Program-made: the position numbers and the translations under genes | The notes under the pieces: model-generated | Told to the model about the DNA's origin: nothing | Databases searched by the model: none | What the model saw: only the letters and a program-made list of their open reading frames with translations | Assembly (NCBI RefSeq): GCF_017355885.1 | Contig: NZ_JAFEUU010000005.1 | Coordinates: forward strand, 62,001-126,000 | Length of the DNA stretch: 64,000 bases | Reading direction: 5' to 3' | From: Sabulicella rubraurantiaca | GTDB taxonomy: Bacteria; Pseudomonadota; Alphaproteobacteria; Acetobacterales; Acetobacteraceae | Shown here: positions 15,568 to 22,006 of the stretch, in pieces | Position numbering within the stretch: position 1 is the first letter of the stretch | How the letters are laid out: every line of letters starts with the position of its first letter

Positions 15568-18828
<3,261 letters not shown>

Positions 18829-18833
18829 GGGAG

Positions 18834-19091
18834 TCAGCCTTTCTGGGCGCGCTTGGCGCGGAAGAGCAGGAGAGGCAGCAGCAGCATGTGCGGCACGCCC
18901 CAGAAGAGAAGGGCGACGAGGCGGTACTCCCCGTCGAGGCTCAAGAGCGTGACCGCGTGGACGGCCACGGAAATCGCGAAGGCCGTGACCGCGGCGCGCA
19001 TCGGCGCGTAGAGCTTGCGCAGCGCATGCGCGAGCCAGAACAGCACCACGGCCGAATAGGCGAAGGCCAGGAGCGGCACGGCGAAGTTCAT
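18834..19091 (-). CDS. small integral membrane protein of unknown function
   Basis: This 85-residue protein has three hydrophobic helices ([20 protein letters not shown], then [19 protein letters not shown], then [20 protein letters not shown]), with a basic tail RAKRAQKG. I do not recognise the family. It sits 5 bases before carB and 26 bases after the SDR gene, so it is almost certainly co-transcribed with carA-carB. Coding is supported by operon position, tight spacing and a membrane-protein profile; similarity evidence is absent. A shadow frame cannot be fully excluded. Confidence 0.65.
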
Positions 19092-19117
19092 GACCTGTCC
19101 TGCCGCCCCTCGTCCGC

Positions 19118-19870
19118 TCAGCCCATCGCCGCGAAGCCGCCATCCACGGGGATGGCGGTGCCGGTGACGAAGGCAGCGGCGTCGGAGGCGAGGAAGGCGG
19201 CGATGCCGCCCAAATCGTCCGGCCTACCCCAACGGCCCATCGGCGTGCGGGCGGCCTGCCGCTCATAGAGGCCGGGGACGGTGGCGCGGGCGCCGTCGGT
19301 CAGCTCGGTCTCGATCCAGCCGGGCAGCACCGCGTTCACCGTGATGCCATCCGCGGCCCAGGCCGTGGCGAGGGACTTGGTGAACTGCACCACCGCCCCC
19401 TTGGACGCGCCATAGGCCGGCGAGAAGGGCAGGCCAAAGATGCTGAGGATGGAGCCGATATTGATGACGCGCCCGACGCCGTGCTGCTTCAGCATGGGAT
19501 AGGCGCCGCGCGTCACCCGCATCAGCGAGCCGAGATTGGTGTCCAGCACCGTGTCCCACTCGTCATCCGTCACTTCTTCGGGCCGCTTGCGGATATTGGT
19601 GCCGGCGTTGTTCACCAGGATGTCCAGGCGTCCGTGACGGCTGCGCACCTCGTCCAGCACGCGCTCATGCGCGCCCTTCGCGGTCAGATCCGCCTCAAGG
19701 ACCAGCGTGCGCTCCGGCAGTTCCTTCGCCGCCGCGGCGTTCTTGGTGGCGTTGCGGCCGGTGATGACGAGGGCGGCGCCATTGGCCGCCAACGCCTTCG
19801 CCATGCCGAGGCCGATGCCCCCATTTCCGCCGGTGACGAGCGCGACGCGCCCGGACAGGTCCCACATCAT
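19118..19870 (-). CDS. SDR-family NAD(P)-dependent oxidoreductase
   Basis: This is a classical short-chain dehydrogenase of 250 residues. It has the nucleotide-binding [15 protein letters not shown], the NNAGTN segment, a catalytic Ser region ([10 protein letters not shown]) and the Tyr-Lys pair in YGASKGAVV, and ends [12 protein letters not shown]. Similar proteins act as 3-oxoacyl-ACP reductases, gluconate 5-dehydrogenases or KduD-like sugar dehydrogenases, so the substrate is open. ATG ATG tandem codons begin the gene; the first is at 19870 and overlaps the carA stop by 4 bases. Translational coupling to carA is therefore likely, although no functional link to carbamoyl phosphate is known to me. 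Confidence 0.88.
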
Positions 19871-21228
19871 CCTTTTGTTTCCTCCATCAGCTTCACGAAG
19901 CGATGGAAAAGGTAGTGGCTGTCCGAAGGCCCTGGCGAGGCTTCCGGGTGGTACTGCACGGAGAAGGCCGGGCGATCCTTCGCCGCAATGCCCTCGTTCG
20001 ATCCGTCGAAGAGCGAGCGGTGCGTCACCGTCACGCCTTCGGGCAGGCTGGACTCATCCACCGCGAAGCCGTGGTTCTGCGAGGTGATCTCCACCTTGCC
20101 GGTCTGCAGGTCCTGCACCGGCTGGTTGGCGCCGCGATGGCCGCGATCCAGCTTGTAGGTCTTCGCCCCCAGCGCGAGGGCGAGGAGTTGGTGGCCCAGG
20201 CAGATGCCGAAGACCGGCACCTTCTTGTCCAGAACCGCGCGGATCGCTGGGACGGCGTATTCGGCGGTCGCCGCCGGGTCGCCGGGGCCATTGGACAGGA
20301 ACACCCCGTCCGGGTCGTGGCGGAGGATCTCCTCCGCCGTGGCGGTGGCGGGCAGGACCGTCACCTCGCACCCGGCATCGGCCAGGCAGCGCAGGATGTT
20401 GCGCTTGGCGCCGTAATCCAGCGCGACGACGCGCTTGCTCGGGCTCTCCTGCTTGCCGAAGCCGGCGCCCCAGGCCCAGCGCGTCTCGTTCCACCGATAG
20501 GCCTGCCGGGCCGTGACTTCCTTGGCGAGGTCCATTCCCTCCAGCCCCGGCCAGGCCTTGGCCTGGGCCAGCAGCGCAGGAATGTCGAAGCGGCCATCGG
20601 CGGGGAAGGAGATGACGCCGTTCGGCGCGCCGCCATCGCGGATGCGGGCGGTCAGGGCACGGGTATCGAGGCCCCCGATGCCCGGGATGTCATGCCGCTT
20701 CAGCCATTCCTGGAGGTCCATGGTGGCGCGGTAATTGGAGGGCTCCGTCACGTCCTGCTTGACGATCAGGCCCCGCGCGACCGGCGTCGCCGCCTCCATA
20801 TCCTCAGGATTCGCGCCGACATTGCCGATATGCGGGAAGGTGAAACAGATCACCTGGCCGGCATAGGACGGGTCGGTCAGCGTCTCCTGATAGCCGGTGA
20901 GGCCGGTGTTGAAGCAGATCTCCGCGACCTGCGTGCCATGGGCGCCGAAGCCCACACCCCAATGCACCGTGCCGTCATCCAGGACCAGGACGGCGGTGGC
21001 GCCAGGAGGGACTTCATCGGCCATAGGGACGGCTTCCTTGTTCTCTTGCGGGACGCCAGCGAGGTCTGCCAGGGAAAGCCCGGTGGCAGCCAGGATGGCG
21101 GGCCAATGCTTCGGGGGGATGGAACGGGACTGACGCCACTTCCGGATGGCTTCGGTGCCGACCTGGCAATGGGCGGCGGCGGCCTCGGCCCCGCCCAGCA
21201 GGGCAAGGATATCTTCCACGGAGCGCAT
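19867..21228 (-). CDS. carA: carbamoyl-phosphate synthase small subunit with an N-terminal helix-turn-helix domain
   Basis: This glutaminase subunit feeds ammonia to CarB. The CarA body has ICFNTGLTGYQE, the class-I amidotransferase nucleophile in FGICLGHQLLALA and the His-Glu pair in QYHPEASPGP. From ATG 21228 the protein has 453 residues. The CarA part starts at about residue 69 (MADEVPPG), leaving ~65 extra N-terminal residues with a compact helical look (SVEDILALLGG, then AIRKWRQSRSIPP, then LSLADLAGVP) like a Cro/YdaS-type DNA-binding fold. I recall protein databases naming such a domain carph-isopro after this very fusion. ATG 21228 has no Shine-Dalgarno and sits at the predicted transcription start. 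Met69 (21024) has AAGGAAG upstream, so a second, domain-free CarA may be made. Confidence 0.9.
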   Translation of the reverse strand: MRSVEDILALLGGAEAAAAHCQVGTEAIRKWRQSRSIPPKHWPAILAATGLSLADLAGVPQENKEAVPMADEVPPGATAVLVLDDGTVHWGVGFGAHGTQVAEICFNTGLTGYQETLTDPSYAGQVICFTFPHIGNVGANPEDMEAATPVARGLIVKQDVTEPSNYRATMDLQEWLKRHDIPGIGGLDTRALTARIRDGGAPNGVISFPADGRFDIPALLAQAKAWPGLEGMDLAKEVTARQAYRWNETRWAWGAGFGKQESPSKRVVALDYGAKRNILRCLADAGCEVTVLPATATAEEILRHDPDGVFLSNGPGDPAATAEYAVPAIRAVLDKKVPVFGICLGHQLLALALGAKTYKLDRGHRGANQPVQDLQTGKVEITSQNHGFAVDESSLPEGVTVTHRSLFDGSNEGIAAKDRPAFSVQYHPEASPGPSDSHYLFHRFVKLMEETKG

Positions 21229-21235
21229 GGTGGCG

Positions 21236-21264
21236 GCATAAGGGAAAAGACTTCCCACTGGCAA
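21236..21264 (-). promoter_or_regulatory. predicted carA promoter, leaderless type
   Basis: On the minus strand TTGCCA (21264-21259) and TTATGC (21241-21236) are 17 bases apart. Transcription would begin within a base or two of the carA ATG at 21228. The 17-bp spacer is almost filled by the palindrome GGGAA-N5-TTCCC, so binding of a protein there would block RNA polymerase. Confidence 0.5.
21242..21256. promoter_or_regulatory. operator-like palindrome, copy 1 (carA promoter spacer)
   Basis: GGGAA-AAGAC-TTCCC lies between the predicted -35 and -10 boxes of carA. A second copy with the same arms occurs 38 bp away. The HTH domain fused to CarA is an obvious candidate to bind it, but that is an inference. 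Confidence 0.5.
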
Positions 21265-21279
21265 GCGGAAACAGCGGGT

Positions 21280-21294
21280 GGGAAATTCTTTCCA
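21280..21294. promoter_or_regulatory. operator-like palindrome, copy 2 (carA-yqeY intergenic)
   Basis: GGGAA-ATTCT-TTCCA repeats the half-sites and spacing of the copy at 21242-21256, with one mismatch. A centred reading GGAAA-TTC-TTTCC is perfect. It lies 26 bases before the yqeY-type gene on the plus strand, so it could affect both divergent genes. Confidence 0.45.
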
Positions 21295-21319
21295 ATTTGA
21301 TTCGAAAGGGAAACGAAAC

Positions 21320-21772
21320 ATGGATCTGCGGGAACGCTTCACCAACGAATTGAAGACGGCGATGCTGGCCAAGGACGCCCCGCGCGTGGCGACCCTCCGC
21401 ATGATCACCGCCAAGCTGAAGGACGCCGATATTGCCGCGCGCCCTGGCCCGCCGCTCGATGAGGCCGGAATTGTGGGGATGCTGCGCGGCATGGCCAAGA
21501 GCCGCCGGGAAAGCGTGGAGCTTTATCGCCAGGGCAACCGGCCGGAACTGGCGGAGAAGGAAGAGGCGGAGATCTCGGTGATCGAGGCCTTCCTGCCCCA
21601 GCAGATGGATGCTGCGGCGATGGAGGCGGCGGTGCGCGAGGCCGTGGCCGAGACCGGCGCCGCCGGCCCCAAGGACATGGGCAAGGTCATGGCCGCGCTG
21701 AAGGCGAAGCACGCGGCCAGCCTGGACATGAGCAAGGCCGGGCCGCTGGTGAAGGCCGCGCTGGGCGGCTGA
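21320..21772 (+). CDS. GatB/YqeY domain-containing protein
   Basis: This 150-residue helical protein of the YqeY family resembles the tRNA-binding tail of the GatB amidotransferase subunit. Visible family features are LRMITAKLKDADIA, the SRRESVELYRQGNRPELAEKE segment and GAAGPKDMGKVMAAL near the end. It is proposed to help glutaminyl-tRNA transamidation, but its role is not settled. ATG 21320 has AAAGGGAAA upstream. Together with the following dnaG and rpoD it forms the alphaproteobacterial macromolecular synthesis neighbourhood, divergent from carA. Confidence 0.9.
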   Translation: MDLRERFTNELKTAMLAKDAPRVATLRMITAKLKDADIAARPGPPLDEAGIVGMLRGMAKSRRESVELYRQGNRPELAEKEEAEISVIEAFLPQQMDAAAMEAAVREAVAETGAAGPKDMGKVMAALKAKHAASLDMSKAGPLVKAALGG

Positions 21773-21799
21773 GGGCGGGACGGACCCGCCCCCGCGGCG

Positions 21800-22006
21800 T
21801 CAGAGATCCTCGGAAAGGACGGTGATCGTGACGTGGTAGGCGACCTCGCCTTCCTCCTCGTCGCGATCCACCGTCCCGATCGTCTCGCCGTCCACCAGCA
21901 GCTCCACCGGACCGCCGCGATTGGCGGCGGCACGGATATGGAGGCGCTGGGAGCCCAGCAGCTTGCGGAGATGGGCCTGCACGGCCTGGATTTCGTTCGG
22001 CTTCAT
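21800..22006 (-). CDS. DUF3126 family protein
   Basis: This 68-residue protein begins MKPNEIQAVQAHLRKLLGS and has the conserved DGETIGTVDRDEEEGEVAY segment of the DUF3126 family. The family is small, found in Alphaproteobacteria and of unknown function; no catalytic residues are evident. It lies on the opposite strand between yqeY and dnaG (28 and 52 bases away), so it has its own promoter within or beyond the dnaG start region. Recognition is from memory of family sequence, not a search. Confidence 0.85.
   Translation of the reverse strand: MKPNEIQAVQAHLRKLLGSQRLHIRAAANRGGPVELLVDGETIGTVDRDEEEGEVAYHVTITVLSEDL

Follow-up and report, generated by a model that had tools for sequence, protein, structure and literature searches.

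The CarA protein encoded in the window, the whole 64-kb stretch of DNA analysed here, is very probably an enzyme subunit that carries its own repressor head. As read from this sequence and those of its relatives, the head would exert autogenous feedback through a palindrome in the carA promoter, with a leaderless start for the headed protein and an internal start for a plain one. A DNA-binding domain and a catalytic domain are combined in one chain, and on the best reading CarA would stand with PutA among the autogenous repressor-enzymes, though with another DNA-binding fold. The relevant features of the window are the following.

15568-18828 (-): carB-like gene, downstream of carA and on the same strand; identified by reading the sequence
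18834-19091 (-): small ORF between carA and carB
19118-19870 (-): ORF for an SDR-type reductase between carA and carB; name from reading the sequence
19867-21228 (-): carA, fused form (Cro-like domain, linker and CarA), 453 aa; ORF and NCBIfam
19879-20997 (-): CarA core, residues 78-450; alignment to E. coli CarA 1bxr
20998-21060 (-): variable linker, residues 57-77; low pLDDT and divergence among relatives
21022-21024 (-): internal ATG, Met69, predicted start of a plain CarA isoform; conserved Met with Shine-Dalgarno sequence
21035-21039 (-): AAGGA, Shine-Dalgarno sequence for Met69; sequence and conservation
21061-21219 (-): Cro-like helix-turn-helix domain, residues 4-56; NF046037, AlphaFold2 and Foldseek
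21226-21228 (-): first ATG, probably of a leaderless message; separated by 7 nt from the predicted -10 box and lacking a Shine-Dalgarno sequence
21236-21241 (-): predicted -10 box TTATGC, aligned with a loosely conserved (G/C)ATAAG
21241-21257 (-): proximal putative operator TGGGAAGTCTTTTCCCT in the promoter spacer; sequence, conserved in relatives
21259-21264 (-): predicted -35 box TTGCCA; C, T, T, G conserved in near-type loci
21279-21295 (-): distal putative operator TTGGAAAGAATTTCCCA, located 38 bp farther upstream; sequence, second copy common in relatives
21320-21772 (+): divergent ORF for a YqeY/GatB-like protein; name from reading the sequence

The CarA protein and its N-terminal head

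Searched as a whole, the CarA protein matches the NCBIfam models CPSaseIIsmall (470 bits) and carphisopro (62 bits). About 70 residues precede the CarA core, and residues 78-450 align with residues 4-376 of E. coli CarA (1bxr and others, E 8e-127). The core retains the glutaminase motifs GICLGHQ and HPEA, which we take to be those with the catalytic residues of CarA, and these motifs are present in all 76 proteins of the fused set for which the C-terminal end was read.

The N-terminal extension, described in the sequence-only reading as some 65 extra residues with a helix-turn-helix look, is recognizable as a domain. A search with residues 1-69 gave a match of residues 4-56 to NCBIfam NF046037 (carph-isopro) with 67.3 bits, above the curated cut-off of 38; the scores for the Pfam families YdaS (23.3 bits, gathering threshold 30) and P22_Cro (19.0 bits, gathering threshold 30.2) fall short of Cro/YdaS membership in Pfam. 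A profile search of the PDB with the head returned XPH1 (0.0015), Xfaso1 Cro (0.0027) and N15 Cro (0.015). The AlphaFold2 model of the head as a monomer (mean pLDDT 80, 32 sequences) consists of helices at residues 4-11, 14-21, 25-34, 39-49 and 53-56, and its top Foldseek matches were operator-bound N15 Cro, free N15 Cro and Xfaso1 Cro, with P22 Cro lower. The structure prediction that had been proposed as a check on the extension thus returned a Cro-like helical fold, a type that binds DNA, with Cro matches of probability 1.0 and TM (query) of 0.58-0.67 at weak E-values of 0.02-0.17, none below 0.001.

The helix at residues 25-34 (TEAIRKWRQS) is presumed to be the recognition helix. Residues E26, A27, R29, K30, W31, R32 and Q33 of the head are invariant across the 32 aligned sequences, and K replaces R32 in the heads of loci L109 and L174. 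The N-terminus of CarA is predicted to be a tethered Cro-like DNA-binding head, which resembles the phage Cro proteins (N15, Xfaso1, P22) and YdaS in predicted fold and helix-turn-helix sequence. The phage Cro proteins, however, are free regulators, whereas the head of CarA is part of a housekeeping enzyme.

The linker between head and core differs strongly among relatives, its constant elements being an internal Met and the Shine-Dalgarno sequence of that Met, and residues 58-69 have a pLDDT below 50 in the full-length CarA model. At three loci (L122, L124 and L126) the linker is extended by in-frame tandem repeats of RAPEG or RAPAG units. At another locus (L123, genome G372) the head lies in another frame than CarA with both palindromes intact, reflecting either a sequencing error or separate products.

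Association of the head with a palindrome

The sequence-only reading had placed GGGAA-N5-TTCCC between the predicted -35 and -10 boxes of carA with a second copy 38 bp away, and this arrangement holds, with 17-mers at 21241-21257 and 21295-21279 that each fit 11 of the 12 fixed positions of TGGGAA-N5-TTCCCA. The GGGAA-N5-TTCCC at 21242-21256 is the sole copy in the window, where 0.06 would be expected, and one of four in the 5.0-Mb genome. Two of the three further sites in this genome fall within ORFs (L117 and L119). The remaining one (L118, contig C3 66605-66619) lies between same-strand ORFs, 20 bp ahead of a possible gene start, and from its position is a possible second target.

The best 80 of 216 loci were fetched as relatives, with L065 dropped because its sequence ends before the site, and the same palindrome is visible in the upstream alignment of these 80. 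Scored over the 12 fixed positions of TGGGAA-N5-TTCCCA at no more than 300 bp from the start, the palindrome reaches at least 10/12 in all 91 domain-bearing carA loci (window included), and a second copy reaches at least 9/12 in 85 of them. In reciprocal fashion, it is found in none of 43 domain-less carA loci. Random 160-bp stretches from the same loci scored at least 10/12 in 10 of 2102 cases. The proposed comparison of carA genes with and without the fusion therefore came out as a repressor-like head would lead one to expect, and a specific operator in the gene's own promoter is indicated by sequence. The domain-less set comprised 40 of the 103 genomes of other families with a match, mostly the best-scoring and one of them short (L164), together with three genomes from within the family. 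More specifically, head and site are both missing from the 40 carA upstream regions taken from alphaproteobacteria of other families, and likewise from the in-family genomes G484, G317 and G399, which represent two lineages (G317 and G399 are of one genus). Eight loci (L124, L176, L177 and L181-L185) were incomplete or without a carA start and were left unscored, and L175 and L180, where head and site are present, lie outside the 91 counted because the scoring pattern missed them. Some family members, whose matches begin at about residue 70, seemed to be headless; this was rejected for those with legible sequence, of which seven are long-linker forms with head and sites and three more, L173-L175, likewise have a long linker.

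Many of the 91 loci are closely related (L007 shares 96% identity with the window over the query, and the sequences of the pairs L125/L068 and L178/L069 suggest in each case one species sampled twice), and the Fisher value for the comparison of headed with headless loci ignores this relatedness. On the tree, head and site may reflect one gain and two losses. The locus counts are thus not independent, and because a single gain is possible the argument from linkage rests also on the placement of the site and on its privacy.

This privacy is revealed by a scan for the exact 17-mer through 60 genomes of the family, with the window's genus represented twice and every other genus once. TGGGAA-N5-TTCCCA occurs 54 times in 39 of these genomes, adjoining carA at 49 sites and lying elsewhere at 5, and the other 21 genomes, the window's included, lack the exact form. 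A reversed control pattern occurs 6 times in the same 60 genomes, and a wider regulon was rejected since the exact sites away from carA are at this control level. These counts also bear on the alternative that a separate transcription factor binds the palindrome and that the head of CarA is unrelated to it, which we consider improbable. The one site before another possible gene in the window's own genome (L118) would suit such a factor. However, with so few exact sites away from carA it would serve almost carA alone, and the site is absent from every headless locus scored. The palindrome is thus best read as the operator of the head, being nearly private to one promoter and present only where the gene has a repressor-like head.

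Promoter architecture and placement of the sites

A strict sigma-70 scan of positions 18700-21900 found zero promoters, and the carA promoter call thus rests on conservation across relatives. In 73 near-type loci, those in which the site is close to the ATG (chosen by site score), the bases C, T, T and G stand directly ahead of the site in 64, 71, 64 and 59 loci, respectively, and a looser ATAAG-like box follows it, so that the operator makes up the 17-bp promoter spacer. The -35 boxes of Gluconobacter oxydans are given as 'ttGnnn' in a transcript-mapping study (PMC5756330).

In 71 of 87 loci the proximal site has its centre 21-23 bp ahead of the ATG, and the distance to the neighbouring gene varies. 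Acetobacter, Komagataeibacter and Asaia have their proximal site about 66-84 bp from the ATG and in no obvious spacer. Of the 80 loci that have both copies, 40 space them 38 bp apart and most others 37-40 or 43-44 bp apart. Since these two ranges differ by about half a helical turn, they speak against rigid cooperation on the same face of the DNA, and helical phasing of the two sites is unsupported by the observed spacings. The ATG of the YqeY/GatB-like gene starts 25 bp from the distal operator, and among 87 loci that include the window, 68 have yqeY in divergent orientation at 82 to 1378 bp from carA. The idea that the distal copy is a yqeY element was rejected because the 38-bp spacing persists in 16 of 19 loci without an upstream yqeY match.

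The placement of the site bears on whether the head represses. An unlikely alternative, though one somewhat less so than the separate factor, is that the head binds the site but turns carA on, or serves to anchor the enzyme on DNA. MerR-type activators bind within the promoter spacer and provide a precedent, and the distal copy is common, as such a role would allow. Against this, in the near-type loci, 73 in all, the site takes up the whole stretch between -35 and -10, a position from which a bound Cro-like dimer should keep the polymerase out, and a spacer of the normal 17 bp would need no MerR-like correction. Repression is the reading preferred here, and the suggestion that CarA represses its own operon gains support from the predicted fold, the linkage of head and site, and the position of the palindrome.

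Two predicted translation starts

The predicted -10 box ends 7 nt from the first ATG, and no Shine-Dalgarno sequence precedes this ATG in 71 of the 73 near-type loci. The message for the long form would thus probably be leaderless, and the head-bearing CarA would be translated from it; the earlier proposal of a message that begins at the ATG is in this way strengthened by conservation. Leaderless transcripts amount to 62 of 1344 mapped transcripts (5%) in Gluconobacter oxydans, in a main text that makes no mention of carbamoyl (PMC5756330).

The internal Met69 was proposed at the outset as a start for plain CarA, and its conservation is consistent with this role. AGGA, GGAG or GAGG precedes 69 of the 72 Mets of the linker but 5 of the 280 that lie in the enzyme body, and synonymous shuffles gave a mean of 27 (sd 3) for the linker Mets; the other 3 of the 72 lack a Shine-Dalgarno sequence. 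This count covers the 87 loci minus L007, L085, L128 and L130, with L039 tallied as Met-less although it has a Met, and where a linker contains several Mets the one with a Shine-Dalgarno sequence was preferred, which biases the count toward two starts. Ten loci have no internal Met and retain head and site. From this pattern two isoforms of CarA, headed and plain, are likely, yet the plain form would not be essential, as the ten Met-less loci keep head and site.

The same observations weigh on the possibility that the extension is misannotated or unused and that the real CarA begins at Met69. The good and conserved Shine-Dalgarno sequence at Met69 and the lack of one at the first ATG speak for it. 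The protein sequence of the extension is nevertheless conserved, the aligned sets showing helix residues that never vary, and in the ten loci without an internal Met only the long form could start from a Met. We regard a start at Met69 alone as highly improbable and prefer the reading with two starts.

Proposed mechanism

From the domain, its predicted fold, the sites, their placement and their linkage to the head, all of which were computed, we infer binding, dimerisation and repression by the head, leaderless initiation and two products. A dimer of the Cro-like head would bind the 17-bp TGGGAA-N5-TTCCCA, and because the proximal palindrome forms the spacer between -35 and -10, the bound head would block RNA polymerase, with the distal copy increasing occupancy. 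When CarA is abundant its head would shut the carA promoter, a negative feedback on the amount of enzyme, and CarA and the genes through carB would be held at a set amount if they form one operon. The first ATG on the leaderless message would yield head-bearing CarA, and the internal ATG with its Shine-Dalgarno sequence, probably the ancestral carA start, would yield plain CarA. Only part of the subunits would then repress, since plain subunits from the internal start would be mixed with those that carry the head. Within the gene cluster, the start of the SDR-type reductase gene overlaps the stop of carA.

Comparison with known systems

The closest working analogue of the headed CarA is PutA, described in PMC5293562 as an enzyme that contains a DNA-binding domain and acts as the repressor of its own genes. 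The two differ in that PutA has a ribbon-helix-helix head, proline-driven switching and a different enzyme, whereas the head of CarA is Cro-like; further, the CarA site occupies the spacer of the promoter, and a headless second form of CarA is likely. In E. coli, carAB is controlled by PepA, ArgR, RutR, PurR and IHF, with PepA a trigger enzyme (PMC6245113); control is thus transcriptional there too, but by regulators that are separate from CarA. The carAB operon of V. cholerae is autoregulated by CarZ, a small RNA from the 3' UTR (PMC7398697); it shares carAB autoregulation, with an RNA as the agent in contrast to the protein proposed here. BzdR joins a DNA-binding domain to a shikimate-kinase-like domain whose ancestral enzyme activity is lost (PMC3602430). 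It thus resembles CarA in the joining of a DNA-binding domain to an enzyme-derived one; BzdR, however, is a dedicated regulator, while CarA retains its catalytic motifs.

The head of CarA is a member of carph-isopro (NF046037) by score, and the database entry offers a name only. This name occurs in no paper of the literature searched, and a CarA head fusion is described as a regulator in none of the titles and abstract openings among the matches listed, both within a literature that leaves most subscription papers outside. If the proposed mechanism is correct, the enzyme would itself contain the control of carbamoyl phosphate supply, where arginine and pyrimidine synthesis branch, throughout a family to which the acetic acid bacteria belong, and carph-isopro, found only as a database name, would gain a likely function and an operator. 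The leaderless (repressing) start and the Shine-Dalgarno (plain) start would together set the repressing share of the enzyme.

Related heads on other proteins

Matches to NF046037 at E <=0.001 occur in 85 of 289 genomes of the class, 54 of them above the cut-off. Among 30 such loci fetched, carA is represented by the window's own (L106) and by L109 of the same family. Seven other headed ORFs were, according to Pfam, mitofilin (three), a crotonyl-CoA carboxylase/reductase (this partner being named by NCBIfam), Nnr, a NarJ/TorD-like chaperone, and one without a named partner; Nnr denotes NAD(P)H-hydrate repair. The chances seem about even that Cro-like heads have been joined repeatedly to unrelated alphaproteobacterial proteins (CarA, Nnr, the NarJ/TorD-like chaperone, perhaps mitofilin, and others) and that every such gene has a private 6-N5-6 palindrome in its promoter and a half-site matching its own recognition helix, the two starts of CarA giving a repressing and a non-repressing form. 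The palindromes upstream of other headed genes support DNA binding as the job of the domain and suggest a module. This would point to a general route by which housekeeping proteins acquire phage repressors as controls of their own.

For headed Nnr (L216-L222, L228 and L229, all of one order), GTACGT-N5-ACGTAC is present upstream at at least 10/12 in 8 of 9 genomes at a near-constant distance, the consensus having been derived from the same loci; of random 85-bp windows, 34 of 2700 reached at least 10/12 with the true sites left in. Two unheaded Nnr relatives of one genus have neither a perfect 6-N5-6 palindrome nor GTACG/CGTAC upstream. No conspicuous palindrome lies upstream of the crotonyl-CoA carboxylase/reductase fusion (L113).

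In the window's own genome, the head of a NarJ/TorD-like chaperone (Pfam Nitrate_red_del; L002/L186, contig C61 321403-322167) passes the YdaS cut-off and fails that of NF046037, and a perfect palindrome, GTGCAG-AATTT-CTGCAC, lies 45 bp upstream. A perfect 6-N5-6 palindrome occurs within 150 bp at 5 of 9 headed chaperone loci (L190, L196, L211 and L212 being excluded for unclear heads) versus 4 of 16 unheaded ones and 13% of random windows. As this count is weak alone, the argument rests more on recurrence: a GTGCAG or GTGCAA half-site is found at two headed loci, CATAAG-N5-CTTATG is common to L189, L191 and L198 (one at the edge of its stretch), and a tenth headed locus, L200, has CATAAG-N5-CTTATC. 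Four headed loci are without a palindrome, and the palindromes of unheaded relatives are mostly G+C-rich and non-recurring.

Twenty-five loci of the FGGIRPMA type, within L087-L116, were treated as mitofilin fusions, three of the four scanned with Pfam matching Mitofilin. Their upstream regions follow no 6-N5-6 rule. GTACG/CGTAC is present in 13 of the 25, with 51 occurrences in 6400 bases versus 1.9 per kb, an enrichment of about four-fold.
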